Positions 21,201 through 43,500 of a stretch of DNA of 64,000 bases are shown piece by piece. Location of the stretch: positions 5,636,501-5,700,500 of the forward strand of contig OX359193.1 in the NCBI GenBank assembly GCA_947172415.1, read 5' to 3'. Each line of letters begins with the position of its first letter. The stretch's first letter is position 1. The translations under genes and the position numbers were made by a program. The stretch comes from Chondrosia reniformis. Lineage: Eukaryota; Porifera; Demospongiae; Chondrillida; Chondrillidae. Under the pieces are notes generated by a model. The model did no database searches. It was not told where the DNA came from and saw nothing but the letters and a program-made list of their open reading frames with translations.

Positions 21201-21824
21201 GGTTACATACCTGGACACCTGTTATGTAGCTGGTCAACTAGTTCCGCAAACTGGTAGAAATCATCCATTGCATAACCAGGCGTGATCATATACTAATACC
21301 AATTATCGATATATGTATATGTATAATAGTGTTATACGTATGTACGTATGTGAATGAATCAAACTATATAGAAACTGTAATTATATGTGGTTACAAGACA
21401 ATGGTTGAACAACAGTACGGAACATATATAAAATCTAGTCATGGCTTTGGCTAGAAACACAATGACTTAAAATTAGCGACGAAGGCTTTAGGATTTACAT
21501 TAAAACCTCTACAGCTTTATTTGTTTAATATTCCAGTGCTTAAATGAGCTTTCTAAGGAAAAAGTGTAAAACACCTGTTTGCTTACCATCTTATGGACTC
21601 TACAATGATATATCATTAAGTTGTTTCAAGGATGTTGATGATACATGGAAACAGACCTTTTTCGTTATATATTTTTTATTTTTTGACATGGTCATCCTTG
21701 TGTGAACTTTTGTTCCTTTCAGGAGTCCCTTCAAGGGGAACCAGAGGAGCAGAGTCCAAAGGAGAACAAACAAAATGGATGGATGTCTGAAGCAGCTGCT
21801 GTTAAAAAATCTAAGACAGCTTGA
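15276..21824 (+). CDS. SEC14-like lipid-transfer protein A (CRAL-TRIO + GOLD)
   Basis: Sixteen exons join in phase (461 aa): 15276-15329, 16768-16837, 16931-16974, 17059-17121, 17729-17822, 18250-18344, 18433-18511, 18580-18599, 18845-18905, 18971-19054, 19533-19633, 19727-19872, 20036-20135, 20791-20863, 20944-21143 and 21723-21824. The start [16 protein letters not shown] matches animal SEC14L2-4 (MSGRVGDLSPRQ). CRAL-TRIO-N is in exons 2-4. The CRAL-TRIO lipid pocket covers exons 5-11 ([40 protein letters not shown]). The GOLD domain is in exons 12-15 ([43 protein letters not shown]). An acidic tail ([10 protein letters not shown]) follows, longer than in human SEC14L2. Exon 8 is a 20-nt micro-exon. 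AATAAA occurs at 21960-21965. The family binds hydrophobic ligands such as tocopherol, squalene and phosphoinositides. The ligand here is unknown. Confidence 0.95.
17236..17413 (+). repeat. dispersed ~180-bp intronic repeat, copy 2
   Basis: The copy closest to copy 1 (4481-4660), lying in SEC14L-A intron 4. It shares all ordered blocks, including CCTATAGGGGAACTAAACC and CCACTGGGTCAGACAG. It may continue into AATTCCACCCTTCATCAG. Confidence 0.8.
18116..18201 (-). repeat. dispersed repeat, copy 3 (reverse, truncated)
   Basis: Reverse complement of the first ~85 bp of the family (CCTATAGGCTCTTTT, AGGAAAATGGTAT, TTAGATTTTTCATG), in SEC14L-A intron 5. The distal C/T-rich part is missing. Confidence 0.75.
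20188..20574. repeat. 31-bp tandem array, ~12 copies, SEC14L-A intron 13
   Basis: The unit is CATAGAGACCTCATTTAAGTGCTCTCCTTTT with a few single-base variants (AGAGGCC, TTCTTTTCACA). It begins about 50 bp after the exon 13 donor. There are no spacers, so it is a simple minisatellite. No matching array is present in SEC14L-B or SEC14L-C at this position, so it arose after the duplication or was lost there. Confidence 0.95.
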
Positions 21825-22466: not shown

Positions 22467-25400
22467 ATGAGTGGCCAAGTCGGTGATCTAAGTCCCCATC
22501 AAAATGAGACGCTGATCAAGGTAAGATTGATATAAATTTTCAGTCGCCAAACGTCGGTCAATATTTACCTTACCCGTGCCATTGGGTAGAACTAGTTTTT
22601 CACCTTGACTTTCGCATGTTAAAGCGACTAAAATTATATTGGTTACTTTCCACAGACTTATAGTCTATTTGTAAGAATAGCACTGGTTACTTGCTTTCAC
22701 TGGGTGCCTTAATAGTAGCCCATTTTTTGGCTAGTGGCCATCCCCAGTTTAAATAAGATACATACCATACCATACCAATATACGATACCGTTATCGATAG
22801 TCGCAGTGATTCCCATTCCTTAGTTATTTCTAAAAGTAATGTCAAGTAGAATGATTTTTTATTGCATTATGTACAGTTCAAGGCTGCTCTATCTGATGTG
22901 TGGAATGACAGCTTTGATGACTATTACCTACTCAGGTGGCTACGAGGTACATATATTTCAGAAGCTATGCATATAGTAACTGATGTACAGACCCCTTGTG
23001 ATCCATATATAGATCACTCCATCAGATCAGACTCCATCAGTTAACAGTCGAGATTTTGTGTGAAAATGTATTCCATGTTGTTTATTGTGTCATACTAGCT
23101 CATCCACGCAGTTGCAGTGCCTTAGTTACATAATTAGTACCAATTATCAACCCAATACAGGGTCTATATTCACCGCAATTAGAATATTTAATTGTTCTTT
23201 ATACATTTTCTCTTCTCACAAAGCAAGAAGATTCAATTTGGCTAAAGCTGAAGCAATGCTGAGGAATGTAAGTGGCTGCTCAAATATCCTCCTAATACAC
23301 ATTCATTTTTGTCCATCCCTTACTTTAGCACTTGGAGTTCAGGAAGACGTGGAGAGTAGACACAATACTGGAGGACTACAAACCACCTGAGGTACTGTAT
23401 TTTATAGATTGTGTATTTTTTTATTTTTAGACCATTATATATACGTATGAGTATCACTTGAGATGATATTCCACTGCCTGTCACTTGAATTGTTGCTATT
23501 ATTGAATAATGAAGCTTGAATCACATTAAAATACCTTTTCCTACTCACGTATGTATGACCATTTAAATGGCCCATTGGTCCAGGGATTAGGAATTTGAGG
23601 ACTAGGCTAATTGAAAATTGACAGAATAAAACAATATACTGTAGGCATCTGTAGATGTTGTATATATGTGTAAATGAATTTCTGTCTTTCTTGGATGATT
23701 AATTATGGGAATCCACTCTTTAGTGAATATAAACAACAACGAGCATCATCTCATTTAAAATGGTTCATCTTTCAACTTTGAGCTTATCATAAAGTCAAAA
23801 AATTAATAATGTAACAATAAGTTTGATGGAGTTAGTCTAGTAATGTAGGACATCCTCTTGCAGGTGATAGTAAAGTATTTCCCCTCTGGGATCTTTGGGG
23901 TGGACCGGGATGGTAATCCGATAACGTGGAACTGTTTTGGTAACATGGACCTCAGAGGTACGTACGTATGTATATGTTTGCTGTACTTATTAACCATATT
24001 ACGTATTAGTTTCATATGCAAACACAACTCCTGAAAAAATGGATGTCACTATAAAGTGCCATTATTTTATGGAAGCTAATAGATTTGCTCAATTTTTATA
24101 TGTTATAAATTAGTAATTGTTTCTATATAAGTAGATATACGTATATCCGCACAACTACCTTTCAAATTGCCATTTTTAATGAAGGTTGTCATCGTGCAAT
24201 TACTAGAGAACAATTCATTAGACATGTTATCTATTTGAATGAAAAGATGGCTCAATTAAAGAAAGAATTATCTAAGAAGGTATGAACATATATTGCACAA
24301 TACAAATCTAGCTATGGCCTTTAGGGTATGAAAACACTACATACAATGCACCTACGTATGTATATATTGACTTATTATAATTGTTTCCAAAACTAAAAAT
24401 GGCAGACAGCACTACTTTGCGTTATGTCTGTAGACAGAGAGAATTGCACCCATTTAATTATCTAGAAAGTATTTTCTGGTTCAATGCATGACTTCAGGTC
24501 TAACTTTTATAGCCTTGGACGGCGGCAGATATCTTCCTAACCACTCCACTATAGAGATGTAGATATGATCCCTGAAGTGGGGTGGCTATATAGTATCCAT
24601 AAGATTAGTTCATATTATATAGAATTTGTACTCATATATATTAATTATATCTGAAGTGGCCATTTATTACTCTTGTACTATATAGACTGTATGACACATT
24701 GTAAGGGAGCTCTATCCTCTATGAGTGATTCTGTCAGTGGTTCTATAATGCCCATCTCCATCTGGAGAGTGTATATAGGTACCTATTTATATGTATTTAT
24801 ATGTATTTGTATGGTGTAGGCTGGTCGTGTAATTGAAACACACACTTCAGTGGAGGATATGGAATATCTGAGCATTCAGAGACACTACTACTGGCCAGGT
24901 ACATGCACATTAACTTCTTTAAAACTGTTACTATATATATCTTTTTATTTTTACCACATAATCCTGTACAGGTATCAAAATGCTTCAAGAAGTGAGTTTC
25001 TGATTTAACAGCTTAAAAATAGCATTCAAGTTTATCTGTACATCTCAACCAATCAAAGATCCTTAATATAAAACTTTAATTGCAGCTGTTATTATTTTAA
25101 CAGTATATGACCATCTTTGAGGACAATTATCCTGAGATTATAAAGCAGTTTTTTGTAATAAAAGGTAAGTTAGGCTATATCATAGATCAATTCTATAGCC
25201 TGTTTCTAGGAGAAGTAACATTATTGTGTTTGTGTTAACTCAGCCCCAAGGGTATTTCCAATTGCTTATAACATTATGAAGCCTTTTTTGGATGAGAATA
25301 CAAGGCGTAAAATGAAAATGTTTGGAAGTAAGTTGCATGCATTCATTCTAAACATTTAAATCTTATATCCATTAGTGAAGCAGTTCATACAATGTACATT

Positions 25401-27612
25401 ATGTTGGGAGAACACTAGGAGTTATGCAATAAGGGTGCATCTTAAACTACCAATGTTGACATTAGCTCTGTAAAAGCTTTAAATGGTTCATCCGTAGCAA
25501 TCACAGTTGGGTCTATATAGGATGCATGGAGTTACTCTAAACACAATCACATAAGTACGTATATCTCTACTAATTATTATGTATGTATATACGTACATAC
25601 ATATTGTAGTAAACCACATTATTCGCACTGCAACATGCTATGATTCTTTTAAAGCATTTTTGATCCTTTTGGAAAAGGATCATAGACCATACGTACTGCT
25701 TCTGTCAACCCTTTACTGTGTTATTATTCATAATAATTGGTAAAATTGAAACTATTACGTATATAAGCAATTTATTATTTAAAACAACATAGTCACTTTC
25801 TATGTTCTTCTAAAGTTTATATTTTCTGTTTTCACTTTTTTCCATTTTCAGGAGACTGGCAGGAGCAGCTTCAGAAGTATATTGATCCTGACAACATTCC
25901 TGCTTACTATGGAGGAAATAGGAATGAACCAGATCCACAGTGCAGTGACTATGTGAGCTGCTAACAGTATTCACATGTGCTTAAAACACACGTAGTATGT
26001 AGGTAGATTTGTGAAGCCTATTTTATGTATTCTATATCTTCTATAATATCTATTAGTTATGTCTGGGCGGTGATATACCTCCAAAATACTACATGACTAA
26101 CTTAACAGAAACATCACAGGAAGAGATGGAAATGATTCAAGTTGGCAAAGGTTCAACTACTCAAGTTGAATACACTATTGATACTCCAGGTTCATGTATT
26201 AGGTGGGTATTACGTATATATATTCCAATATAAGGTGGATGTATGCATACGTATATGCATTTCATAAGGTATGTACAGTAGTACTTATTCTAGAAATTAT
26301 AGTACACATATACATATGTAAGACTGATTGTGACGTGTGTACGACCACTAATGCAGAACATAACAAGGACAAATATCACACTAATACAGCTCAAAAACAC
26401 CTCAATCTTGTATATTATGCAGAATATACACATTAGTTCTATATAGGCACTAACAACTAACATACACTAAGAGTAAACCTAGTCAATAGTCTTCATAAGC
26501 TTTAGGGTTTACATATATTTTCTTTAAAATCACCTTTAATGTACGTAGTGATTTAAGTTACTAAACTCTTTTACAGTATAGAATGATAATTAACGAACTA
26601 CAGCTATAAATGAAGTTGCTTTCAGAACATTAGTGAAGGCATACTAATAGCTTCTTACTCATTTCTCATCATTGTACGTACAAGATTATCATTTTCTCAC
26701 TTCCCTTTGGAAAATCTATTTCCTCTATGATTCATTTGTTTTAGCCTGTATCTTATGTTTATCACCTAAAGTGACTCTGTTATAACCACTAACCAAAAAA
26801 TAATGTGTTGTATGGACAATATGTAATATTTTTTAGGTATGAGTTTATTACTAAAGACTATGACATTGGATTTGGTATTTATCATAAACCATTAAAAGCA
26901 AAAGCTCGTTGGAGTGCAGGAAGTATGACTCCCAAAGTAAGTCACACTTCATCCTAGTTCTTCCATTCACTTAAGTGGTTCACACCCAGTACAGATATAT
27001 ACATATGAGCAGTGCTATTTACTTCTATGACAGGTAAAGTCTGAGAGAAGAAACAGTCATATTGTACCAGAAAGTGGATTCCACATCTGTGAAACTACAG
27101 GAATATGTAAGTGGCACTTCAGTGGACCAGTAGTCTCATGATTCCACTTGAGATTAAGAATGGGTCTGTTCTCTCTTCTCCCTCAGATGTTCTACGATTT
27201 GATAACACTTACAGCTGGACTAGAACTAAAGAGGTGAAATACTCAGCTAGGGTCCTTCCTCCAGACACTGAGATCTGTCAGACAGATGGCTTCAATGGAT
27301 ATGATGAACAAGGAGAGCTATCTGCTTCTAAAAGAAGTACAAGTGACAACTCAAAGGATAATGATGATGAATTTGAAGATGCTCAAGTGAGATTTTATTT
27401 ACCCTGTAGGAATGTATTTAATGTGTAATATGAACTGGTACCATGGAGGGAGGCAAGACAATATATTGTCTATGTGTGATTTACTATGAATATTTTATTG
27501 ACAGATACAGAATCTGAAAGGAGAAGCAGAGGAGCAGAGTCCAAAGGAGAATGGAGAAAATGGAGGATGGATGTCAGAAGCAGCTGCTGTTAACAAATCT
27601 ACAACAGTTTGA
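22467..27612 (+). CDS. SEC14-like lipid-transfer protein B (CRAL-TRIO + GOLD)
   Basis: Sixteen exons of the same lengths as copy A except the last (463 aa): 22467-22520, 22877-22946, 23224-23267, 23329-23391, 23864-23957, 24185-24279, 24820-24898, 24972-24991, 25104-25164, 25244-25327, 25852-25952, 26057-26202, 26837-26936, 27034-27106, 27187-27386 and 27505-27612. It starts MSGQVGDLSPHQNETL. CRAL-TRIO and GOLD motifs match copy A. Exons 11, 12 and 15, with introns 11 and 14, are nearly identical to copy A, whereas introns 1-10 have diverged in length. That pattern suggests gene conversion over the 3' half. The last exon encodes a Glu-rich tail ending AAAVNKSTTV. It begins 643 bp after copy A and is followed 644 bp downstream by the first collagen gene. 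Confidence 0.95.
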
Positions 27613-27767
27613 CATTAATGTTTCTTCATGTTAACCTTATGATGCTCTACATATATAGTATATCAACTATTTATATTTTGTTGTATGTACCACCTAAAAA
27701 GTCTTATTTTAAATATATGCCTTTTGAATGGGTGCCAAACGTGTCAAAATTACAAGTTTTCCCTGTT

Positions 27768-27855
27768 AAGGATATCATAGCCTGATATATATCCATATCA
27801 TAGCCTGATATATATCCATATCATAGCCTGATATATATCCATATCATAGCCTATT
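27768..27855. repeat. ~24-bp tandem repeat (CATAGCCTGATATATATC)
   Basis: About 3.5 units between SEC14L-B and collagen 1. The same array with slightly different unit lengths occurs at 33190-33290, ahead of collagen 3. It is therefore part of the duplicated SEC14L-collagen module. Confidence 0.85.
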
Positions 27856-28255
27856 TCAGTATATTCTTAATTCAATAATGGTATTGGTTTTCTTTGCATC
27901 ATCAGATTATATATACTGGTGATGAGTTTCTCCTCTGTTGAATGTACATATATACTCACAGGAGAGTGATACTGATGTGTTAGTGATGTGTTAGCTGAAT
28001 ATATACGTATATTGAATACACACATGTACACATGCACAATACTCCTATAAATGTAAGGAAGGTATATATATACGTGTGTACACTATGAACTGAGGGCTAT
28101 ATCCTTCAACAGTACAAAACTAATTATAACTATATTCATTAACTATACAAAGGGCGTGTCCAGGAAGTTATTTTTACAGCTGCATGGGCATATACCCTGT
28201 GTTTACTATCAGTGTACGCCCTAATTTAAACAGTATATAGTTTTCATTGTTTGCC

Positions 28256-29593
28256 ATGTTCAGTACTAATATACTAGTATGTCTATTAATTGCTCAAGTA
28301 CTGAGCACTGATGCCAACAGAACCTGTGTTGATACTAAAGAGACTGGAAGACTGAACTTTGAACTCTTGGTTGATGTTCTTGGTGTTCCAGGTCCAGTTG
28401 GACCAGAAGGACAGAAAGGACAGAAAGGTGAGCTTGGTGTGCAAGGAAGAACTGGAGTGAGAGGAGAAACAGGCCAAAAGGGAGAACCTGGTGATGTGGG
28501 ACCAGTAGGACCTCAAGGAGACAAAGGGGAGAAAGGCAGGAGAGGAGAGAAGGGTGACTTAGGTCTGCAAGGTGTGCAAGGCATTCAAGGGCCAGTTGGC
28601 TTACGTGGTCCAATAGGAAGAGAAGGCCCACAAGGACCAGAGGGTCCAGAAGGTCCTCAAGGTGTACCAGGTCCAACTGGGTCTCGTGGTCCTCGTGGTT
28701 TGCGGGGTATCAAAGGTTCACAAGGTGTTCCTGGTCCAGCTGGTCCTCGTGGTGTACAAGGACCTCAAGGAGTGCAAGGTATTCCTGGAGATACTGTTCT
28801 CACAAGTGAAGAGTTCACTAGTGTATGCCAAAATGTGAGTGAAAAGGTGTTGGATAGTTTAGCAATGAAATTAGAAAGAATGGAGAGGGAAATTGATGCA
28901 CTGAAATCAGTTCATGCTCATACCAAATGTGGCATCTTTGGTGTAAACTGGAGACGCATTGCTTACCTTGACATGACCCAACCTTCAGCAAGTTGTCCAT
29001 CAAGTCTAACAGAACACAGCAATAGTTCAACTGGACAGAGAGCTTGTGGAAGAAGTTCAGACCGAGGTTGCTCTTCACTTATATTTCCATCTAAGGGGAA
29101 GTATTCACAGGTCTGTGGACAGGTAGTTGGATATCAACAAGGATCAATGGATTCATTCCTTCCTAATCGTAATGCTGACAAGACTATTAATGATGTATAT
29201 GTTGATGGTATATCCGTAACACATGGAAATACTAGGAAGCATTTGTGGACCTATGTGGTTGGTATTAGAGAAACAGCCCAATTCTTATGCAATCAGTGTC
29301 CAGGAGATAGAGCAAATTACCCAGCTTCTTGCATTCCAGACTTTGTTGGAAATGACTATTACTGTGAAACCGGTTGGGTATCTTCGTTTACTAATGGAAG
29401 ACATGTATGGGATGATCCATTGTGGGATGGTAAAGGATGTCATCTTTCAACAGCTCACTCTTGTGACAGATATGGATGGTTCCACAAGCAAGTTAACCCA
29501 ACCACTGACTACATTGAAGTGAGACTGTGTGCTGACCAAGAAACTAGCAGTGAAGATGTTCTTGCAGAACTCATTGAAATATGGGTGTTGTAA
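28256..29593 (+). CDS. secreted collagen-like protein 1
   Basis: A single exon of 445 aa. The ATG at 28256 is chosen because it aligns with the start of the other three copies. A signal peptide ([20 protein letters not shown]) is followed by a short N-terminal segment ([19 protein letters not shown]). An essentially unbroken Gly-X-Y domain of about 45 triplets ([13 protein letters not shown] to GVQGIPGD) comes next. A short helical linker ([20 protein letters not shown]) may drive trimerisation. The ~215-residue Cys-rich C-terminal domain contains [43 protein letters not shown] and DYIEVRLC. I remember similar C-terminal domains in uncharacterised sponge and cnidarian secreted proteins, but I cannot name the family. 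AATAAA is at 29774-29779. The protein is probably extracellular matrix. Confidence 0.9.
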   Translation: MFSTNILVCLLIAQVLSTDANRTCVDTKETGRLNFELLVDVLGVPGPVGPEGQKGQKGELGVQGRTGVRGETGQKGEPGDVGPVGPQGDKGEKGRRGEKGDLGLQGVQGIQGPVGLRGPIGREGPQGPEGPEGPQGVPGPTGSRGPRGLRGIKGSQGVPGPAGPRGVQGPQGVQGIPGDTVLTSEEFTSVCQNVSEKVLDSLAMKLERMEREIDALKSVHAHTKCGIFGVNWRRIAYLDMTQPSASCPSSLTEHSNSSTGQRACGRSSDRGCSSLIFPSKGKYSQVCGQVVGYQQGSMDSFLPNRNADKTINDVYVDGISVTHGNTRKHLWTYVVGIRETAQFLCNQCPGDRANYPASCIPDFVGNDYYCETGWVSSFTNGRHVWDDPLWDGKGCHLSTAHSCDRYGWFHKQVNPTTDYIEVRLCADQETSSEDVLAELIEIWVL

Positions 29594-30338
29594 ACCAAAC
29601 GTAATTTAAGGCTTTCATTATCAATGCAGATAGAGTGGACTCACCTTTATTAGATTAAATTACAGTTTTTGTCATAGCTATTTTGATAACTTAAAAAAAT
29701 GTTTTGCTGTAGCTGTCTTTATGCAATGATGTATATGAGTGAATTCTACTTATTTCTTCATATGTGAACATGTAATAAATGCTACATTTTCATATGAGAA
29801 TATGTATATATACGTATACATAAATTAAAGCTATAGCTAGTGCAAGTTACAAATTACATGAGTAAATAATTAAATTGTTTCCTAGGAGGAATGTTCACAA
29901 ACCAGATAAAGTAAGTAGTTTATAAATTATTGGGAATAAAATTTAAATACGAAATGCAATGGGACTGTACTAAATGTACAGTGCACAAAATGTGAAGCAT
30001 ACATGCATATATGTTCTCAGTATATATATAATATGTAGCCTCCTGTCATCTAACATTACCAGATCTATATAGCTATATTTAGCAGGAAAATTTTCACTTT
30101 CATTATCACCTATATAGCATATCTCTCTCCTCCATCTATATGTTTATTAACTTTTGGGTTTATAGCCAGCATATTTACAACATTCTAAACTGCACAGGTC
30201 TCTTTTACACATTGTACACATGATGAGTATTTTTATACGTGATATAAAATGTGATTATAGTATAAAACTTCACATTCCTAGTATATAAAGTAGCCGTGTA
30301 AATGGAGCCCGAGGGCGGAGAAGACTGAAAATAGCCCC

Positions 30339-31241
30339 ATGAGTGGCAGAGTCGGCGATCTGAGTCCTCAACAACAAGAAACATTGGCTAAGGTAGAGAC
30401 GAGGTGTATATATGTATAATTCCGGATCTGCTTGCGATTGATCCGCTTCGTCAGTTGCTGTTTATAAGTATTAGCACTTAACATTGCTTAAATAATTAGA
30501 GTACGTTTTGTATATATTTTACTTAGTTAATTATAAGTAAGCCTAATACAAGTTACTAACATTCAATAATCACTGTTGAATATATGTATGTATGTATTCA
30601 TCAATGTATCCACATTCATCCAATGTATTCTAAGATAGCTAAATTTACATACTTCTATGATAGATGAAGTCTGAGAGAAGAAACAGTCATATTGTACCAG
30701 AAAGTGGCATCCACATCTGTGAAACTACAGGAATATGTAAGTGGCACTTCAGTGGACCAATAGTCTCATGATTCCACTTGAGATTAAGAATGGGTCTGTT
30801 CTCTCTTCTCCCTCAGATGTTCTACGATTTGATAACACTTACAGCTGGACTAGAACTAAAGAGGTGAAATACTCAGCAAGGGTCCTTCCTCCAGACACTG
30901 AGATCTGTCAGACAGATGGCTTCAATGGATATGATGAGCAAGAAGAACTATCTGCTACTAAAAGAAATACAAGTGACAACTCAAAGGATAATGATGATGA
31001 ATTTGAAGATGCTCAAGTGAGATTTTATTTACCCTGTAGGAATGTATTTAATGTGTAATATGAACTGGTACCATAGAGGGAGGCAAGACAATATATTGTC
31101 TATGTGTGATTTACTATGAATATTTATTGACAGATACAGAATCTGAAAGGAGAAGTAGAGAAGGAGAGTCCAAAGGAGAATGGAGAAAATGGAGGATGGA
31201 TGTCAGAAGCAGCTGCTGTTAACAAATCTACAACAGTTTGA
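30339..31241 (+). CDS. SEC14L mini-gene: exon 1 joined to exons 14-16 (GOLD fragment)
   Basis: Copies of SEC14L exon 1 (30339-30392), exon 14 (30664-30736), exon 15 (30817-31016) and exon 16 (31134-31241) lie in order. Exons 2-13, with the whole CRAL-TRIO domain, are absent. Exon 1 ends and exon 14 starts in phase 0, so the four exons form an open 144-aa frame. All GT and AG splice sites are kept. The product would be [18 protein letters not shown] followed by the C-terminal part of the GOLD domain ([19 protein letters not shown]) and the acidic tail. Exon 14 begins ATGAAGTCT as in copy A, and exon 16 is like copy B, so the piece is mosaic. It may be a short new gene or a remnant that has not yet decayed. 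Expression is untested. Confidence 0.6.
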
Positions 31242-31683
31242 CATTAATGTTTCTTCGTGTTAACCTTATATCAACTATTTATATTTTGTTTTATGTACCA
31301 CCTAAAAAGTCTTATTTTAAATATACCTTTTGCGCATATATCTATCTATCTATCATACTTTTAGTATATTCCTAATACAATGTTAAGTGGTATTGGTAAG
31401 TTTCCTTTGCATCATCAGATTATACTGGTGGTGAGTTTTTCTTTTGTAGGATCTTCCAGTTGTTGGGTAATGTTGGGTGGCAACACTCCATTCTTGGTAA
31501 TAGTCCTTCCATGACCCATAGTACTCTACAGTATCTAAGAGAAGTGTACTAAAATTTATGTGACCTATATACGTATACAGTATACAGGGACGTGCCCAGG
31601 AAGGTATTTTTACAGCTGGGCATGCCCTGTGTTTCAAATCAGTATACGCCCTAATTTAAACAATACAGTTTTCACTGTTTGCT

Positions 31684-32529
31684 ATGGTCAGTACCAATAT
31701 TGTAGTAGTATGTCTATTAATTGCTCAAGTACTGAGCACTGATGCCAACAGAACCTGTGTTGATACTAAAGAGACTGGAAGGCTGAACTTTGAGCTCTTA
31801 GTTGATGTTCTTGGTGTTCCAGGTCCAGTTGGACCAGAAGGACAGAAAGGACAGAAAGGTGAGCTTGGAGTGAAAGGAAGAACTGGAGTGAGAGGAGAAA
31901 CAGGCCAAAAGGGAGAACCTGGTGATGTGGGACCAGTAGGACCTCAAGGAGACAAAGGGGAGAAAGGCAGGAGAGGAGAGAAGGGTAACTTAGGTCTGCA
32001 AGGTGTGCAAGGCATTCAAGGTCCAGTTGGCTTACATGGTCCAATAGGAAGAGAAGGCCCACAAGGACCAGAGGGTCCAGAAGGTCCTCAAGGTGTACCA
32101 GGTACTGGGTCTCGTGGTCCTCGTGGTTTGCGGGGTATCAAAGGTTCACAAGGTGTTCCTGGTCCAGCTGGTCCTCGTGGTGTACAAGGACCTCAAGGAG
32201 TGCAAGGTATTCCTGGAGATACTGTTCTCACAAGTGAAGAGTTCACTAGTGTATGCCAAAATGTGAGTGAAAAGGTGTTGGATGGTTTAGCAATGAAATT
32301 AGAAAGAATGGAGAGGGAAATTGATGCACTGAAATCAGTTCATACCAAATGTGGCATCTTTGATGTAAACTGGAGACGCATTGCCTACCTTGACATGACC
32401 CAACCTTCAGCAAGGTGTCCATCAAATCTAAGAGAACACCGCAATAGTTCAACTGGACAGAGAGCTTGTGGAAGAAGTTCAGGACCTGGTTGTTCATCAG
32501 TGATATTTCCATTATGTGGTTGGTCTTAA
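31684..32529 (+). pseudogene. collagen-like protein 2, truncated
   Basis: A copy of the collagen-like gene with signal peptide and Gly-X-Y domain. The triplet register is disturbed by loss of one codon (GVPGTGSRG instead of GVPGPTGSRG). About 180 bp of the C-terminal domain are missing between the ..SSVIFP and ..WLVLKEKA segments, and the frame then closes at 32529. Immediately after this, the sequence switches into SEC14L intron 14 (from ~32541). The remaining product (281 aa) lacks most conserved cysteines. It is probably non-functional, although a secreted triple-helical fragment could still be made. Confidence 0.85.
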
Positions 32530-32540
32530 AGAAAAAGCTA

Positions 32541-33036
32541 CTTCAGTGGACCAGTAGTCTCATGATTCCACTTGAGATTAAGAATGGGTCTGTTCTCTCT
32601 TCTCCCTCAGATGTTCTACGATTTGATAACACTTACAGCTGGACTAGAACTAAAGAGGTGAAATACTCGGCTAGGGTCCTTCCTCCATACACTGAGATCT
32701 GTCAGACAGATGGCTTCAATGGATATGATGAACAAGGAGAACTATCTGCTACTAAAAGAAGTACAAGCGACAACTCAAAGAATAATGATGATGAATTTGA
32801 AGATGCTGAAGTGAGATTTTATTTACCCTGTAGGAATGTATTTAATGTGTAATATGAACTGGTACCATGGAGGGAGGCAAGACAATATATTGTCTATGTG
32901 TGATTTACTATGAATATTTTATTGACAGATACAGAATCTGAAAGGAGAAGCAGAGAAGCAGAGTCCAGAGGAGAATGGAGAAAATGGAGGATGGATGTCA
33001 GAAGCAGCTGCTGTTAACAAATCTACAACAGTTTGA
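32541..33036 (+). pseudogene. SEC14L remnant (exons 15 and 16 only)
   Basis: The end of SEC14L intron 14 is joined directly to the broken collagen 2. Exon 15 (32611-32810, with EDAE instead of EDAQ) and exon 16 (32929-33036) follow and are otherwise intact. No exon 1 or exon 14 precedes them, so there is no start codon in the SEC14L frame. It is a by-product of the module duplication. Confidence 0.88.
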
Positions 33037-33189
33037 CATTAATGTTTCTTCGTGTTAACCTTATGATGCTCTACATATATAGTATATCAACTATTTATAT
33101 TTTGTTGTATGTACCACCTAAAAAGTCTTATTTTAAATATATACCTTTTGAATGGGTGCCAAGCGTGTCAAAATTACAAGTTTTCCCTG

Positions 33190-33290
33190 TTAAGGATATC
33201 ATAGCCTGATATATCCATATCATAGCCTGATATCCATATCATAGCCTGATATATATCCATATCATAGCCTGATATATATCCATATCATAG
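33190..33290. repeat. ~24-bp tandem repeat (CATAGCCTGATATATATC), second copy
   Basis: A homologous array to 27768-27855 with a different number and length of units. It lies in the spacer between the SEC14L remnant and collagen 3. Confidence 0.85.
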
Positions 33291-33672
33291 CCTATTTTAG
33301 TATATTCTTAATTCAATAATGGTATTGGTTTTCTTTGCATCATCAGATTATATATACTGGTGATGAGTTTCTCCTCCAACTGTTGAATGTACATACTCAC
33401 AGGAGAGTGATACTGATGTGTTAGCTGATTATATATATTGCATACACACATGCACAATACTCCTATAAATGTAAGGAAGGTACAATGTACGTGCATACCC
33501 TATGTACTGAGGGCTATATCCTTCAACAGTACAAAACTAATCATAACTATATTCATTAACTATACAAAGGGCGTGTCCAGGAAGTTATTTTTACAGCTGC
33601 ATGGGTATATACCCTGTGTTTACTATCAGTGTACGCCCTAATTTAAACAGTATATAGTTTTCACTGTTTGCC

Positions 33673-35010
33673 ATGGTCAGTACCAATATAGTAGTATGTC
33701 TACTAATTGCTCAAGTACTGAGCACTGATGCCAACAGAACCTGTGTTGATACAAAAGAGACTGGAAGGCTGAACTTTGAACTCTTGGTTGATGTTCTTGG
33801 TGTTCCAGGTCAAGTTGGACCAGAAGGACAGAAAGGACAGAAAGGTGAGCTTGGAGTGCAAGGAAGAACTGGAGTGAGAGGGGAAACAGGCCAAAAGGGA
33901 GAACCTGGTGATGTGGGACCAGTAGGACCTCAAGGGGACAAAGGAGAGAAAGGCAGGAGAGGAGAGAAGGGTGACTTAGGAGTGCAAGGTGTGCAAGGCA
34001 TTCAAGGACCAGTTGGCTTACGTGGTCCAATAGGAAGAGAAGGCCCACAAGGACCAGAGGGTCCAGAAGGTCCTCAAGGTATACAAGGTCCAACTGGGTC
34101 TCGTGGTCCTCGTGGTTTGCAGGGTATCAAAGGTTCACAAGGTGTTCCTGGTCCAGCTGGTCCTCGTGGTGTACAAGGACCTCAAGGAGTGCAAGGTATT
34201 CCTGGAGATACTGTTCTCACAAGTGAAGAGTTCACTAGTGTATGTCAAAATGTGAGTGAAAAGGTGTTGGATAGTTTAGCAATGAAATTGGAAAGAATGG
34301 AGAGGGAAATGGAAGAACTAAAATCAGTTCATACCGAATGTGGCATCTTTGATGTAAACTGGAGACACATTGCCAACCTTGACATGACCCAACCTTCATC
34401 AAGGTGTCCATCAAATCTAACAGAACACAGCAATAGTTCAACTGGACAGAGAGCTTGTGGAAGAAGTTCAGGCCCAGGTTGTTCATCAGTTATATTTCCA
34501 TCTCAAGGGAAGTATTCACAAGTCTGTGGACTGGTAGTTGGATATCAACAAGGATCAATGGATTCATTCAATCCTAATCGTAATGCTGACAAGACTATTA
34601 ATGATGTATATGTTGATGGTATATCCATCACACATGGAAATCCTAGGAAGCATTTGTGGACCTATGTGGTTGGTCTTCAAGAAGCAGCCCATTCCATTGT
34701 TTGCAAGCAGTGTCCAGGAGATAGAGCAGATTACCGAGCTTCTTGTATTCCAGATTTTGTTGGAACTGACTATTACTGTGAAACCGGTTAGGTATCTTCG
34801 TTTATTAATGGAAGACATATATTATGGGATGATCCATTGTGGGATGGTAAAGGATGTCATCTTTCAACAGCTCACTCTTGTGACAGATATGGATGGTTCC
34901 ACAAGCAAGTTAACACAACCACTGACTACATTGAAGTGAGATTGTGCACTAATGAAGATACAAGTAATGAAGATGTTCTTGCAGAACTCATTGAAATATG
35001 GGTATTGTAA
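33673..35010 (+). pseudogene. collagen-like protein 3 with one in-frame stop
   Basis: A full-length copy (signal peptide, Gly-X-Y domain, Cys-rich C-terminal domain). A TAG at 34789-34791 stands where copies 1 and 4 have TGG (YYCETGW). The frame is otherwise open to the normal stop at 35008-35010, and the remaining C-terminal sequence ([18 protein letters not shown]) is conserved. It is a young pseudogene, a polymorphic allele or a sequencing error. If read as is, the product ends at 372 aa and lacks the last ~73 residues. AATAAA is at 35196-35201. Confidence 0.85.
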
Positions 35011-35729
35011 ACTAAACGTAATACATAAGGCTCTTTCTTTATCAATGCAGATAGAGTGGACTCACCTTTAATAGATTTAGAGTATAGTCTTCGTTGTAGC
35101 TATCTTGATAATTAAAAAAACTCTTTTGCTGTAACTTTCTTTATGCAATGATGTATATGAGTGAATTCTACTTAGTTCTTCACATATGAACATGTAATAA
35201 ATGCTACATTTTCATATGAGAATATGCATGTAAACAATCCTGTATATAAAGCTGTAGCTAGAGCAAGTTGCAAATTACATGAGTAAATAATTAAAATGCT
35301 AGCTTCCTAGGAAAGTGAATGTTCACAAACCAGCATTTTAAGATATATAAAATAGAAGATATAGTAGAAGTCTATAAATTGGGAATAAAATTTTAAATAT
35401 AAAATGCAATTGGACTGTACTAAATGTAAAGTGTACTTACATTCATAAAATGTGTAGCATACATTACCAGATCTATATAGCAGGAAAATTTTCACTTTCA
35501 TTATCGCCTATATAGCATATCTCTCTCCTCCATCTATCTGTTTATTAACTTTTGGGTTTATAGCCAGCATATTTTCTAAACTGCACAGGTCTCTTTTACA
35601 CATTGTACACATGATGAGTATTTTTATACGTGATATAAAATGTGATTATAGTATAAAAATTCACATTCCTAGTAAATAAAGTAGCCGTGTAAATGGAGCC
35701 CGAGGGCGGAGAAGACTGAAAATAGCGCC

Positions 35730-36534
35730 ATGAGTGGCAGAGTCGGCGATCTGAGTCCTCAACAACAAGAAACATTGGCTAAGGTAGAGACGAGGTGTAT
35801 ATTGTATAATTCCACTTGCGATTGATCTGCTTCGTCAGTTGCTGTTTATAAGTATTAGCACTTAACATTGCTTAAATAATTAGAGTAAGTTTTGTATATA
35901 TTTTACTTAGTTAATTATAAGTAAGCCTAATACAAGTTACTAACATTCAATAATCACTGTTGCATACATCTATGTATTCATCCACATTCATCCAATGTAT
36001 TCTATGATGAGAGAAGAAACAGTCATAGTGGTATCCACATCTGTGAAACTACAGGAATATGTAAGTGGTACTTCAAGGGAGCAGTAGTCTCATGTTTCCA
36101 TTTGAGATAGGAATGGGTCTGTTCTCTCTTCTCCCTCAGATGTTCTACGATTTGATAACACTTACAGCTGGACTAAAACTAAAGAGGTGAAATACTTGGT
36201 TAGGGTCCTTCCTCCATACACTGAGATCTGTCAGACAGATGGCTTCAATGGATATGATGAACAAGGAGAGCTATCTGCTTCTAAAAGTAGTTCAAGTGAC
36301 AACTCAAAGGATAATGATGATGAATTTGAAGATGCTCAAGTGAAATTTTATTTACCCTCTAGGAATGTATTCAATGTATAATATGAACTGGTACCATAGA
36401 GGGAGGCAAGACAATATATTGCTATGTGTAATTTATTATGAATTACATATAATATTGACAGACACAGAATCTGAAAGGAGAAGCAGAGGAGCAGAGTCCG
36501 AAGGAGAATGGAGAAAGTACAAATATTTTTTGCT
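35730..36534 (+). pseudogene. SEC14L remnant (exon 1, damaged exon 14, exon 15, partial exon 16)
   Basis: Exon 1 (35730-35783) and exon 15 (36140-36339) are intact. Exon 14 has lost its acceptor and two internal pieces (around 36005-36060). Exon 16 (from 36462) diverges after ~36518 and runs into unrelated sequence. Skipping exon 14 would put exon 15 out of frame, so no SEC14L-like product can be made. It shares the exon 1-exon 14 junction with the mini-gene at 30339, so both derive from the same rearranged ancestor. Confidence 0.85.
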
Positions 36535-36881
36535 AGGGAGGTACTTCTACTGTACACATATATGTACCACCTAAAAAGTCTTATTTTAAATATATAATTA
36601 TACCTTTTGCCCATATACCTATCATACTTTCAGTATATTCTTAATACAATGTTAAGTGGTATTGGTACGTAAGTTTCCTTTGCATCATCAGATTAATTAT
36701 ACTGGTGGTGAGTTTCTCTTCCTGCTGTTGGGTAATGTTGGGTGGCAACACTCCATTCTTGGGAATACTGTCTTTCCATGACCCATAGTACTCCACAGTA
36801 TCTATATAAGAGGAATGTACATATATAGTGTCACAAGAGTGAGAGACACTGACATATTAGCTGTCCATATACATACTCATG

Positions 36882-38260
36882 GGAGATCTGGAATCCTTGT
36901 GGAGATGGCCTGATATGATGTCCAGCCTAAAAGAGAGAACTGATCTGACACCAAACATCATCATTGACCTGCTGAAGAAGTGCTTAACAACCACTTACTT
37001 CCAGTACCAAGACAAATTTTACCAGCAGACAGAAGGTGCAGCAATGGGTTCACCCCTCTCCCCTCTCATTGCCAACATCTATATGGAGTTCTTTGAAGAA
37101 CTAGCTATTGAGACTGCCAAGGACAAACCATCACTCTGGCTCCGTTATGTAGATGACACATTCGCTGTATGGAGACATGGAGAGGAGAACCTAGGAAACT
37201 TCTTCGCCACCTCAACTCCATCAGAAGTACCATCCAATTCGCAATAGAGAAAGAAGAGCGAGGACAGTTGCCTTTCCTGGATGTTTTAGTCAGAAAAGAT
37301 ACCTTGAGCCAACAGTTTCATTTCAGTGTCTTCAGGAAACCGACGCACACTGATAGTTACATAAATTACAAATCCAATCACCACCCTGCTACCAAGATTG
37401 CCACCATCCTTTGCCTAAGAAAAAGAGCAGAAGACATTTGCCAAGGAGAAGATCTAAAGAAAGAACTCAACCACATTGAAGATACCTTCATTGCCAATGG
37501 TTATCCCAGAGGACTTGTGAAGAGGACTTTACACAAAAGGAAAGGCAATAGACAACCAGAGGAGGAAACGGATGAACAAGAGAGGATACTGTGCCTACCT
37601 TACATCAAAGGCATCAGTGAAACTCTCCACAGGACCTGCAGACCCCTCAAAGTCAGGATAGTACACAAGGCTCCCACCACTTTGCGTTCCCTACTGACCA
37701 GGGTTAAGCCACCAACCCCCAAGGACCAGGTGACTGGAGTCATTTACCAGATCCCCTGTGAGTGTGGAGACAACTACATTGGAGAAACCTCAAAGACCTT
37801 AAATGAAAGGCTGAAGGAACACCAACGGGCTGTAAGAAGAATGGACAACAACAACTCAGTTGCTGTACATGTGAGAGACACTGGACACAACATCTCATGG
37901 GAAAATGCCAAAATAATGCTGAAAGAAGATAACAAGATGAGAAGAAAGAGGCAATCAAGATTAAGACCATCCCCTGTTTCAATATGGACCAAGGAATCTA
38001 TTTGGATCCTATCTGGAATGACTTTATTTAATTAACACTTGTAATTCATTTTTATCCTCATTAAATATTCGGCGCACTTTTTTCATTACATCATTTTTCA
38101 CACCTGCCAACCAACTTCATTTAATCAACAACCTTTCCTCACTTTTCCATATTGCTGATGAAGACCTTTGGGTTGAAACGTTCTATTCCAAAGATTTGAT
38201 GTTGCTGTTGCTCAATGAACTTCATATATCATCATGATCGCGACAAATAAACCCTATCAG
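36882..38260 (+). mobile_element. Penelope-like retroelement, 5'-truncated, broken
   Basis: Contains the C-terminal part of a reverse transcriptase (GAAMGSPLSPLIANIYMEFFEE, catalytic YVDD, then LPFLDVLVRKD). A GIY-YIG endonuclease domain follows (GVIYQIPCECGDNYIGETS, LNERLKEHQRAV). RT plus GIY-YIG is diagnostic of Penelope-like elements. The two parts lie in different frames, so the copy carries at least one break, and the 5' part of the RT is missing. The element is flanked by 12-bp direct repeats TACATACTCATG at 36870-36881 and 38261-38272, a clean target-site duplication. It inserted in the spacer upstream of collagen 4, after the cassette duplications. Confidence 0.93.
38150..38190 (+). 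ncRNA. hammerhead-ribozyme-like core at the Penelope 3' end
   Basis: CTGATGA (38155-38161) is followed by a 13-nt segment able to form a short stem II (GACC/GGTT) and then GAAAC (38175-38179) and CGTT. This is the order of a hammerhead core. Penelope-like elements are known to carry minimal hammerhead motifs in their terminal repeats. Stem II is weak here and stem III is only the palindrome ACGT, as in the dimeric forms reported for this class. Activity is not shown. A decayed relative lies at 61480-61515. Confidence 0.5.
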
Positions 38261-38456
38261 TACATACTCATGTACTAAAGAATATCAACAGTACAAAACT
38301 AATTATTACCATTTATGTGACCTATAAACTATATTCATTAACTACAGTATACAGGCCTAGGGGCGTGCCCAGGAAGGTATTTTTACAGCTGGGCATGCCC
38401 TGTGTTTATTATCAGTGTACACCCTAATTTAGACAATATAGTTTTCACTGCTTGCT

Positions 38457-39794
38457 ATGGTCAGTACCAAAGTATTAGTAGTATGTCTATTAATTGCTCA
38501 AGTACTGAGCACTGATGCCAACAGAACCTGTGTTGATACAAAAGAGACTGGAAGATTGAACTTTGAGCTCTTGGTTGATGTTCTTGGTGTTCCAGGTCAA
38601 GTTGGACCAGAAGGACAGAAAGGACAGAAAGGTGAGCTTGGAGTGCAAGGAAGAACTGGAGTGAGAGGGGAAACAGGCCAAAAGGGAGAACCTGGTGATG
38701 TTGGACCAGTAGGACCCCAAGGAGACAAAGGGGAGAAAGGCAGGAGAGGTGAGAAGGGTGACTTAGGTCTGCAAGGTCTGCAAGGCATTCAAGGTCCAGT
38801 TGGCTTACCTGGTCCAATAGGAAGAGAAGGCCCACAAGGACCAGAGGGTCCAGAAGGTCCTCAAGGTATACAAGGTCCAACTGGGTCTCGTGGTCCTCGT
38901 GGTTTGCAGGGTATCAAAGGTTCACAAGGTGTTCCTGGTCCAGCTGGTCCTCGTGGTGTACAAGGACCTCAAGGAGTGCAAGGTATTCCTGGAGATACTG
39001 TTCTCACAAGTGAAGAGTTCATTAGTGTATGCCAAAATGTGAGTGAAAAGGTGTTGGATAGTTTAGCAATGAAATTGGAAAGAATGGAGAGGGAAATTGA
39101 TGCACTGAAATCAAATCATACCAAATGTGGCATCTTTGATGTAAACTGGAGACGCATTGCTTACCTTGACATGACCCAACCTTCAGCAAGGTGTCCATCA
39201 AGTCTAACAGAACACAGCAATAGTTCAACTGGACAGAGAGCTTGTGGAAGAAGTTCAGACCGAGGTTGCTCTTCACTTATATTTCCATCTAAGAGGAAGT
39301 ATTCACAGGTCTGTGGACAGGTAGTTGGATATCAACAAGGATCAATGGATTCATTTGCACCTAATCGCATTGATGTCAAGACTATTAATGATGTATATGT
39401 TGATGGTATATCCATCACACATGGAAATCCTAGGCAGCATTTGTGGACCTATGCAGTTGGTCTTAGAGAAAAAGTTACTTCCTCATGCAATCGGTGTCCA
39501 GGAGATATAGCAGATTATCCAGTTTCTTGTATTCCAGACTTTGTTGGAATTGACTATTACTGTGAAACCGGTTGGGTATCTTCGTTTAATAATGGAAGAC
39601 ATGTAGTATGGGACGATCCATTGTGGGATGGTAAGGGATGTCATCTTTCAACAGCTCACTCTTGTGACAGATATGGATGGTTCCACAAGCAAGTTAACAC
39701 AACCACTGACTATATTGAAGTGAGATTGTGCACTAGTGAAGATACAAGCAATGAAGATGTTCTTGCAGAAGTCATTGAAATATGGGTATTGTAA
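38457..39794 (+). CDS. secreted collagen-like protein 4
   Basis: An intact single-exon gene of 445 aa. Domains are the signal peptide ([20 protein letters not shown]), the Gly-X-Y domain and the Cys-rich C-terminal domain with [28 protein letters not shown] and DYIEVRLC. Differences from copy 1 are concentrated in the middle of the C-terminal domain ([25 protein letters not shown]). The upstream ~100 bp carry the same GGGCGTGCCCAGGAAG and TTTTTACAGCTGGGC blocks as copies 2 and, less exactly, 1 and 3. They are probably the promoter. AATAAA is at 39975-39980. With copy 1 it is one of two copies that look fully functional. Confidence 0.9.
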
Positions 39795-40515
39795 ACCAAA
39801 CGTAATACCTAAAGCTCTTTCTTTATCAATGCAGATAGAGTAGACTCACCTTTAATAGATTTAGAGTACAGTCTTTGTTGTAGCTATCTTAACTAAAAAC
39901 TCTTTTGCTGTAGCTTTCTCTATGCAATGATGTATATGACTGAATTCTACTTAGTTCTTCACATATGAACATGTAATAAATGCTACATTTTCATATGAGA
40001 ATATGCATGTAAAAAATCCTGGATATATATATAAAGCTGTAGCTAGTGCAAGTTGCAAATTACATGAGTAAATAATTAAAATGCTAGCTTCCTAGGAGGG
40101 TTGTGAATGTTCACAAACCAGCTTTTTAAGATATATAAAATAGAAGTCTATAAATTGGGAATAAATTTTAAATACAAAATGCAATTGGACTGTACTAAAT
40201 GTAAAGTGTACTTGCATTCATAAAATGTGTAGCATACATTGCCAGATCTATATAGCAGGAAAATTTTCACTTTCATTATCACCTATATAGCATATATCTC
40301 TCTCCTCCATCTATCTGTTTATTAACTTTTGGGTTTATAGCCAGCATATTTACAACATTCTAAACTGCACACAGGTCTCTTTTACACATTGTACACATGA
40401 TGAGTATTTTTATACATGATATAAAATGTGATTATAGTATAAAACTTCACATTCCTAGTATATAAAGTAGCCGTGTAAATGGAGCCCGAGGGCGGAGAAG
40501 ACTGAAAATAGCGCC

Positions 40516-43500
40516 ATGAGTGGCAAAGTCGGCGATCTAAGTCCTCAACAACAAGAAACATTGGCCAAGGTAGAGACCAGGTGTATATATGTATAATTCC
40601 ACTTGCGATTGATCTGCTTCGTCAGTTGCTGTTTATAAGTATCATTGCTTAGCCGTAAGCACAATACAAGTTGCTAACATTCAATTAGCCACTGTGAATT
40701 GATTTGACGGTTGTAATTGTAGCCTCAGAATGGTATATATTTGGTGTTCAACTTCAGTGGTCGGCCTAAATTCCTTATTGTCTATTCACTCGTGAAGTAG
40801 TAAATGAGTCGTATTACAGTGAGACCTACTTCACATATTGTTTATATCAACATGTACAGTTCAAGGCTGCCTCAACTGATGTGTGGAATGACAGCTTTGA
40901 TGACTACTACCTACTCAGGTGGCTACGAGGTACATAGAAGTTAATCATGTTTCACTAGTGACTAATCTATTTCACTAGTGACTTGTAAAGTTGTTTTTAT
41001 AATATGGACAAGTCTATTGAGGACATATTATATTCCATTTTAGCAAGAAAATTTAATTTGGCTAAATCTGAAGCTATGTTGAGAAATGTGAGTACGTATG
41101 TAGGTACATGTAAGTGTACAATGAACAGTGGACTGGAGGTTACTGTTTATATATATGGGTATCTCTTAATACAGCATTTGGAGTTCAGGAAGACGTGGAA
41201 TGCTGATACAATAGTGGAGGACTACAAACCACCAGAGGTGAGATGTACTGGATCAATATATACACTCTCCACCATATCTAACATAAATACTGCTGATAAT
41301 TATAATTCTAAATAAGTATAAAGGTATGGACTGGGTGACTGTTAAACCATAAATTACTATAATGTGGATTCCTGTGTATCAATTTCATTCCACATTATGA
41401 AGGTTTCCTCAATTCTAAGGCTTTGTCAAATTAAGCACTTTACATATAATACTTGGTCTGATAACCTTTGTGAGATTAGTAAATCAATAATTACCTCTTT
41501 GTTCTGAGAGTAGCAGTTACATTAAGCTTCAATGTATCCATCCCTCTATATATACGTAAGTAATAAACTATCGATCAGTCAATTCTAAAGAAAATTTCCC
41601 TATACAGGAGAATCTATGACTAATTGAAGCTATTTGTATGAGTATGTAGCATGAATGTAGTGATAAATTAAATATATGATCACTATCACAAATGTATGTA
41701 ATTTGGTGGAACTGTCAAAATTGTTATTTGGGCTGGTAGTGCTTTGAAGGTCTATAGCATCAGATTGTACGTACATAATTGCAACAATTTTTAATTCTCT
41801 TATCATGTGTGTTGCATATAGGTGCTTGAGAAGTATTACCCATCTGGAGTCCTTGGTCTAGATAGGGATGGTGATCCTATAATTTGGAATGTGTTTGGTA
41901 ACATGGACTTTAGAGGTATATACGTACAATGTACTCAAGAGATTATTCAATTTTTGAGATGTACATATATATATACGTACGTACATATATACTAATACCA
42001 ATTGTTCAAATCCTACATATATAAATCATATTGCATGTCACATACGTAAGACTGATTCATGTTTGCCACTTATATACTTGGAATTAGGTAGGTTGCCATT
42101 CTAATCTTCATGGCAGGCTTAAACTCTACAGCCTTAAACATTTTTTCTGGAGATCTTTTATAGACATACATGTAGCTGTAAAATGTTAATATGGACATCT
42201 ATCAATTATCTGTTGCTCCACATTTACTTTAAGAATAACTTGAGTCCTATTTTTGTCATTACAAAGTCATGAATGTGTTGGATTGATGTTGTAAACCATT
42301 TTTGTTAAAGGCTATCATCGATCAGTTACAAGGGATCAGCTAATTCGCCATGTTGTCTACAAAAATGAAAAAATAATCCAATTAAAAAAAGAATTATCTA
42401 GAAAGGTATGCACAGATGATTACATATGACAAGAAAATAACTTAAGATTGTTACCTGAATCAGACACTTCTTGGTCTAATAGATCATCATTAATTATCTT
42501 CCTTGAGAGGAGAAGCTAGTTTTATTGATGTACCTACAGAGCGTATGATAATGCAGATAATCTACGTATGTACACTAAATTCCAATTACAGTAATGAAGT
42601 TTTATATATTTGTTTATTTCAATACATATACATATGGTGTAGGCTGGTCGCGTAATAGAAACTCACACTACTGTGGAGGACTTGGAGAACATGAGCATTC
42701 AGAGACACTACTATTGGCCAGGTACATACATACTTCTCAGAAAGTATATACTCTACCACTTACAAAGGTAATGTATATATCTTATTTTTGCTTCATACCT
42801 GCAGGTATAAAAATGTTCCAAGAGGTAAGCTTGTCTCCATGCACTGTGGGTCACATTAGCACACTTTTACATTTATTTGAACCTACGTATATACATACAT
42901 ATAGCTATGTATGTATTTTGGAATTACTTAATTCTTATTATTTTACAGTTTCTGACAATCTTTGAGGACAACTATCCGGAAATTGTGAAGCATATTATTG
43001 TTATTAAAGGTTCTTATCTGCAATGTGTTATGCTGTATATGTACACATGTGGACAGTTGTCACATGATCTCATAAATAGTGTTCATATTTCAGCTCCTAA
43101 GGTATTTCCTGTTGCATTCAAACTGATTAAACCTTTCCTGGATGAAGCCACAAGGCAAAAGATGAAAGTATTAGGTGGTAAGTATACTCTAATTACACAT
43201 ACGTATGCACATGTTCTAAGCTAGTAAAGAATTGGAATAATGCAATTGCCCATGTAATAGCTGTGTTACATGAAATTTATAGTATATTCAGTACAAGGCT
43301 AAAGAAATACATGAATACGTTTCAAAGAACACTATTGCTCTAGATTCATGACCTTCGTAGGATAAGCCTATAGGTTTGGATCAGTCACATGTTTGTATTA
43401 TGATAGAAGTAGCTCATTGATGAAACACTTGTGGTTTAAACACACTGTCCTGAGATCTGCTCCAGAGATTGCTTCTTCCATGTTTTTCTATACTAGTGAA

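Follow-up and report, generated by a model that had tools for sequence, protein, structure and literature searches.

Within a 64,000-nucleotide stretch of the genome of the demosponge Chondrosia reniformis (assembly GCA_947172415.1, contig OX359193.1, here contig C5, positions 5636501-5700500; hereafter the window), four units composed of SEC14L exons 13-15, an intronless collagen-like gene and SEC14L exon 1 are arranged in tandem between two SEC14L genes, SEC14L-B and SEC14L-C. We consider it likely that this array arose by a tandem duplication with its ends in two different genes, followed by unequal crossing-over, gene conversion and decay, and that the collagen-like gene is the one that was multiplied. 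The collagen gene, and not SEC14L, is the common denominator of the locus, as it is multiplied both in this array and in a second one further along the same contig, where it is combined with exons of BCAS3. Searches beyond the window covered the whole assembly (117,379,552 bases in 15 contigs).

Comparison of the window with itself by BLAST revealed long same-strand repeats (E = 0), for instance between 27116-31188 and 32540-36516, which are 89.6% identical over 4144 columns. Identity among the units is mostly 89-94% on long stretches, with some spacer pieces at 76-83%. Differences between units are mostly of 6-11%, and the same order of elements and the same breakpoints return in register from unit to unit. 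The tandem SEC14L-collagen repeat proposed in a first-pass annotation of this DNA is thereby confirmed, with four units, three of them complete. The limits given there (27034-40569) correspond to the first base of SEC14L-B exon 13 and the last base of SEC14L-C exon 1, and the two gene identities hold as well (E = 5.4e-99 to human SEC14L2 for the SEC14L-C model, the Pfam Collagen domain for the collagen-like genes).

All elements of the array lie on the forward strand. Its left edge is formed by exons 13-15 (27034-27105, 27189-27386 and 27505-27612) of SEC14L-B (22467-27612, 15 exons mapped), followed by collagen-like gene 1 (28256-29593; intronless, open over 445 codons, Pfam Collagen at 5.9e-23) and an extra SEC14L exon 1 (30339-30392, donor GTAGAG). 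A junction intron (30393-30663), homologous to SEC14L-C intron 1 up to about 30581 and to an intron 12 from about 30641, then leads into i1, the first of three internal SEC14L 3' modules (30664-31241, with exons 13-15 at 30664-30736, 30817-31016 and 31134-31241). Collagen-like gene 2 (31684-32512) has lost its 3' half and is followed by no exon 1, and the unit order is therefore complete in only three of the four units. The next module, i2 (32540-33036), begins within intron 13 and holds exons 14 and 15 only, without exons 1 and 13. Collagen-like gene 3 (33673-35010) is full length but for an in-frame stop at 34789-34791, and it precedes the second extra SEC14L exon 1 (35730-35783) and module i3 (36008-36516), in which exon 13 is damaged, exon 14 is open and exon 15 diverges past about its half. 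After a Penelope-like insertion (36882-38260; partial reverse transcriptase and GIY-YIG) comes collagen-like gene 4 (38457-39794; intronless, open, 445 codons), and exon 1 (40516-40569) of SEC14L-C (40516-45217, exons 1-14 mapped) ends the last unit. In total there are four collagen copies and, counting the one of SEC14L-B, four SEC14L 3' modules. As the earlier annotation had stated, the CRAL-TRIO exons are gone from the internal copies: neither BLASTN (E 1e-10) nor the CRAL_TRIO profile gave a match in 27.7-40.5 kb. Overall, this is the layout of a tandem-duplication chimera, in which both outer parents are whole and the 5' part of the downstream gene is joined to the 3' part of the upstream gene.

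We then focused our attention on the junction. Exon 1 had been described as jumping to exon 14 or 15; the actual partner is exon 13 in both internal exon-1 copies, although exon 13 is damaged in the second. Since exon 1 ends and exon 13 starts in phase 0, the two are joined in frame. The same annotation had attributed the array to exchange between introns, and intron 1 does meet a late intron here; an origin of the junction by homologous exchange, however, finds no support in the longest exact intron matches, which were compared with 30 shuffles per pair for nine intron pairs. Intron 1 of SEC14L-C shares at most 11, 7 and 7 bases with intron 12 of SEC14L-A, -B and -C, respectively, against shuffled maxima of 11, 8 and 10. 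Given matches within the shuffled range, homologous crossing-over between these introns in their present form did not create the junction. These results bear on the possibility that the driving force behind the array is non-allelic homologous recombination between adjacent SEC14L genes, with collagen as a passenger. The SEC14L genes do exchange patches of sequence, as described below, and all lie on the same strand; such recombination should nevertheless yield in-register duplicates of entire genes instead of joining intron 1 to intron 12, and no homology beyond that of shuffles connects the joined introns. In addition, the same collagen subfamily has been amplified next door without SEC14L, and we regard this explanation as unlikely.

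The evidence for the amplification next door comes from a genome search with the C-terminal region of the collagen-like proteins, which gave at least 145 matches at E 0.001 or better (145 of 328 candidates scored). Among the matches listed, one subfamily of 12 stands at 81% identity or more, the others at 57% or less. It consists of the four window copies and eight copies at C5:5704-5745 kb, which lie on the opposite strand 27 to 68 kb past the array; six of these eight are open and two are frameshifted. SEC14L was not found in this second array, as the 11 genome-wide matches to the exon 13-14 peptide comprise 10 in the six window modules and a weak one on contig C14. The collagens alternate there with BCAS3 exons, recognized in single open reading frames by PF21034 (1.4e-8 and 2.7e-6, above the cut-off) and, more marginally, by PF12490 (0.003; 18.1 bits for a cut-off of 19). 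Genome searches for BCAS3 were made with protein and PF21034 queries; a PF12490 query gave no match, either here or in its 14 control genomes. The BCAS3 C-terminal exon is present in six copies (six matches genome-wide) and each of three WD40-region exons in three copies (nine matches, seven above the cut-off), all in the stretch C5:5698.9-5734 kb. The first copy of each exon, starting in or just past the window, is presumably part of the parent gene. The second array as a whole spans C5:5698900-5745500, where eight inverted collagens alternate with six copies of BCAS3 3' exons. One core with differing partners, as expected of a core duplicon, is thus what we find: collagen with SEC14L in the first array and collagen with BCAS3 in the second. 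The earlier claim that SEC14L recombination carried the collagen gene along does not agree with this finding, given that collagen was amplified with BCAS3 in the absence of SEC14L.

The relationship between the two arrays was evaluated with three of the four window copies (the truncated one being omitted) and six of the eight copies of the second array. Coding identity between arrays is 0.92-0.94 in all 18 pairs, similar to the 0.91-0.95 observed within arrays, while the flanks on both sides are unalignable between arrays in all 18 pairs (0.39-0.52). Internal flanks reach 0.67-0.98 in the first array; in the second, downstream flanks show 0.90-0.98 in five copies and 0.42-0.48 for copy e1, and upstream flanks 0.39-0.71. 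Unalignable flanks beside near-identical coding sequence suggest either that conversion was limited to the body of the gene or that the breakpoints coincide exactly with its edges. Moreover, six of the eight copies in the second array start with a signal-like N terminus (MKSAYFYT...) unlike that of the window copies, and the two far-end copies have the window type; this mixture suggests that the 5' end of the collagen gene was swapped at some point.

The wider family occurs at several other loci, for example C7:157-647 kb, C7:1550-2091 kb, C9:1889-1953 kb, C6:5636-5662 kb and C5:6265-6298 kb. Stretches of three other collagen arrays (20 kb at C5:6265 kb, and 10 kb each at C6:5636 kb and C9:1889 kb) contain repeated collagen units, but no repeated partner exons were recognized by eye among their open reading frames, so that capturing neighbours is not a general feature.

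The SEC14L genes themselves are arranged head to tail (A at 15.3-21.8 kb, B at 22.5-27.6 kb, and C at 40.5-45.2 kb and on). The paralogue SEC14L-A (15276-21821, forward strand) was modelled as 15 exons with splice sites. Exons 1-14 are open in all three genes, whereas exon 15 could be placed in A and B and is only a candidate in C. The C model aligns with human SEC14L2 over residues 1-389 and contains CRAL_TRIO (4e-31) and GOLD_2 (3e-12) domains; the whole-protein scan concerned C only, to which A and B were aligned exon by exon. It likewise aligns over residues 1-389 with the SEC14-like proteins 2-4 (PDB 1o6u, 4uyb and 4tlg), from which the internal array copies differ in lacking the CRAL-TRIO exons. 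Synonymous divergence (dS) in exons 3-9 is high (1.17 for A-B, 0.81 for A-C and 1.05 for B-C), and most introns are no better than 0.41-0.56 identical. By comparison, dS in exons 10-14 is 0.03-0.20 overall (0.16-0.20 in exons 10-12 and 0.03-0.08 in exon 14), and identity is 0.91-0.95 in intron 10 and 0.93-0.98 in intron 13. Similarity in introns 2 and 3 is confined to the pair A-C (0.96 and 0.89), and that in intron 12 to the pair B-C (0.95). The three genes have accordingly been homogenised patchwise, in exon 2, exons 10-14 and a number of introns, but not in exons 3-9, which are old and divergent; such patchy similarity is the signature of ectopic gene conversion. In addition, the 16 parsimony-informative sites of the six 3' modules are in part mutually incompatible, with A and i1 against B and C at the start of exon 13, and A and C against B and i1 in intron 13. 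Non-allelic exchange between SEC14L copies, another element of the first-pass annotation, is thus real, in the form of patchy gene conversion.

It could be argued that the combination of collagen and SEC14L is itself selected, the chimeric mini-gene being expressed and useful and its linkage to collagen held by selection. In i1, exons 1, 13, 14 and 15 do form a single open frame of 144 amino acids, with GT/AG at every joint, and the units retain sequence upstream of exon 1. Nevertheless, two of the three internal pieces are broken, since i2 has neither exon 1 nor exon 13 and i3 has lost the acceptor of exon 13 and further bases, so that only i1 could still yield an in-frame product. Even there, the chimera would encode only a partial GOLD domain (27.5 bits, below the Pfam cut-off of 28.4). 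The 16 variable sites of exon 14 in i1, i2 and i3 are distributed over the codon positions as 5, 5 and 6, a flat spectrum that matches the expectation without constraint. The internal SEC14L pieces therefore look like neutral debris, passengers without detectable constraint, and a selected module seems quite unlikely to us. Nor do the data support the view that lipid-transfer and collagen genes form a single evolving module: the collagen travels, and no sign of constraint is seen in exon 14 of the internal SEC14L modules.

As for the collagen-like genes, inspection by eye shows a hydrophobic, signal-like N terminus in the complete copies, together with some 45 Gly-X-Y triplets; these are followed by a C-terminal region of about 220 residues. 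PF01391 was detected in all four window copies (3e-23 to 1.2e-22), with one short interruption in collagen 2. None of the four contains a known C-terminal collagen domain (fibrillar NC1 or collagen IV NC1) or any Pfam domain besides Collagen at E 0.1, and a profile of 16 C-terminal domains matched no PDB sequence at E up to 10. Many cysteines and tryptophans are invariant among those 16 aligned copies. A structure model predicted from the four collagens of the window had a mean predicted local distance difference test score (pLDDT) of 30.1 and was not used further. Both damaged window copies are informative on decay: collagen 3 is stopped by a TAG after 372 codons, and collagen 2 suffered a compound deletion, its sequence ending at 32512 and continuing in a 26-base filler of more distal collagen sequence before entering SEC14L intron 13, at the right edge, at a shared ACTTC. 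For ten of the 12 collagens (e2 and e8, being frameshifted, were left out), the mean ratio of nonsynonymous to synonymous divergence (dN/dS) over 45 pairs is 0.49 at a mean dS of 0.107; taken separately, the Gly-X-Y part gives 0.26 and the C-terminal part 0.54. The collagen copies are thus constrained.

The insertion at 36882-38260, which we take to be Penelope-like, contains RVT_1 (1.8e-7) and a GIY-YIG domain slightly below the cut-off (22.4 bits against 22.6). Its position inside the array raises the possibility that it drove the duplication. However, it is present in a single unit, away from the unit boundary, and is flanked by its own 12-base direct repeat (TACATACTCATG, at 36870-36881 and 38261-38272), of which no third site exists on the forward strand of the window. 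Related copies occur elsewhere in the genome (best at 94-98%; 64 matches listed, including its own place), and no element remnants were seen at the other junctions, either in the self-comparison or in the genome search with the element. Being confined to one unit and off the boundaries, the element is probably a later arrival, and a causal role for it is extremely unlikely.

We also considered whether the array could be an assembly artefact or represent uncollapsed haplotypes. According to the genome report (PMC12181767), the genome comprises 14 chromosomes and a mitochondrion, with a chromosome 5 of 8.8 Mb and a scaffold N50 of 8,459,200, and k-mer completeness is 69.43% for the primary assembly and 93.73% for the combined one, which suggests high heterozygosity. 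On the other hand, the published totals correspond to HiFi reads of about 12.9 kb on average, and the assembly was processed with purge_dups and Hi-C curation (PMC12181767). Moreover, the divergence among the units is accompanied by private lesions (an insertion with target-site duplication, a compound deletion and a nonsense codon), and haplotype duplication would be expected to give a pattern unlike four tandem partial units. An artefact is thus very unlikely; haplotypes may well differ in the number of copies.

Based on these results, the history that we favour would start with one collagen-like gene flanked by two SEC14L genes of the same orientation. About 3.6 kb, reaching from intron 12 of the upstream SEC14L gene to intron 1 of the downstream one, would have been duplicated in tandem, and end joining or template switching would have linked the ends in the absence of extended homology. 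The outer genes would thereby both stay intact, a further collagen gene would arise, and exon 1 would be placed ahead of exons 13-15 as a chimera at the junction, as the observed anatomy shows. Unequal crossing-over would then have raised the unit count to four. Gene conversion continues to reshuffle the SEC14L 3' modules, as their mosaic sites show, and has probably homogenised the collagen coding part with that of the downstream array, which would fit the identity pattern. Later, copies decayed by deletion, nonsense mutation and insertion of a retroelement.

Several observations weigh against this history, or at least against its simplest form. Intron 1 of SEC14L-B and intron 12 of SEC14L-A share 12 bases, the sole pair of the nine to exceed its shuffled maximum (11). 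On its right side, the i1 junction is similar to intron 12 and exon 13 of A, not to those of B. Probably B was overwritten later through conversion by C, or else an A-like donor was involved; in either case, a plain duplication of B, collagen and C is not the whole history. In the collagen tree, seven of nine inner branches are open and the four window copies do not group together, so that the order of duplications cannot be read from it. Within the second array itself, the upstream flank of copy e7 and the downstream flank of copy e1 are unalignable. Lastly, the exon 14 comparison involves few sites, and the pattern among A, B and C is itself mild (3, 1 and 5 over the codon positions).

The BCAS3 exon copies show a different picture from the SEC14L pieces. 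In exon Eb, the 15 variable sites among six copies fall on codon positions as 1, 2 and 12 (proportions of synonymous and nonsynonymous differences, pS 0.147 and pN 0.004), and in exon Ea, 13 sites fall as 3, 2 and 8 (pS 0.101, pN 0.014). Exon Ec has only four variable sites (1, 1 and 2), and exon Ed, in three copies, has 27 (8, 5 and 14). By eye, the Ea copy at 5714166 opens with TAG in place of the tyrosine codon found elsewhere and its downstream Ec is inverted, and in the copy at 5727-5728 kb a single A is missing behind Eb, as are ten bases behind Ec; no lesion was seen in the examined exons of the other four copies. These spectra suggest that the BCAS3 exon copies, unlike the SEC14L pieces, are under purifying selection, and they are a better lead than the latter. 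It is conceivable, if doubtful, that in this sponge, the body of which consists of collagen, the collagen-like genes act as core duplicons whose amplification recurrently captures adjacent exons, not always as debris, with several BCAS3 copies under selection and i1 representing an early stage. Lesions in two of the six BCAS3 copies make this possibility less likely. The collagen genes lie antisense between the copies of the BCAS3 3' exons, and, if the proposal is true, these copies could provide alternative 3' ends or function as partial genes in their own right.

Besides the array, the window contains a minisatellite at 9667-11162 (26-base unit, 56 copies), a second one of CACTCCA type at 12614-13698 (about 1.1 kb, within a strongly strand-asymmetric stretch) and a nearly perfect GTAT repeat at 53576-53970 (99 copies).

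The kind of event described here is known and each of its steps has published counterparts, whereas the instance is new; no prior account of this locus was found among the titles and abstract openings listed from the open-access literature, a weak negative. In the Sdic family of Drosophila melanogaster, a two-gene duplication gave a chimera that expanded in tandem and underwent widespread gene conversion (PMC7475035). The likeness covers the duplication over two adjacent genes, the chimera, the expansion of units and the conversion, and it includes the presence within the repeat of a retroelement fragment and of a piece presumed to be a pseudogene. There, however, the chimera is itself the studied functional gene, while here a complete third gene inside the unit, the collagen, has remained open and the chimera is largely broken. 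Chimeric genes of D. yakuba likewise join the 5' end of one gene to the 3' end of its neighbour at a duplication junction, but they are polymorphic variants with expression data, whereas the sponge array is diverged and has four copies. The LCR16a/NPIP core duplicons of primates (PMC7419210) resemble our case in that a gene-bearing core is multiplied with differing neighbour gene pieces alongside; the core there measures 20 kb and is mostly interspersed, in contrast to a 1.3-kb gene in local tandem arrays here.

Altogether, two adjacent arrays that have the amplified gene in common, and not the passengers, allow driver and passenger to be told apart. The locus provides a well resolved animal case, beyond insects and primates, in which the amplification of one gene shuffles the exons of its neighbours. 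Moreover, it points to a large family of secreted collagen-like proteins that, outside the collagen repeat, have no Pfam domain, in a species of interest as a source of collagen.

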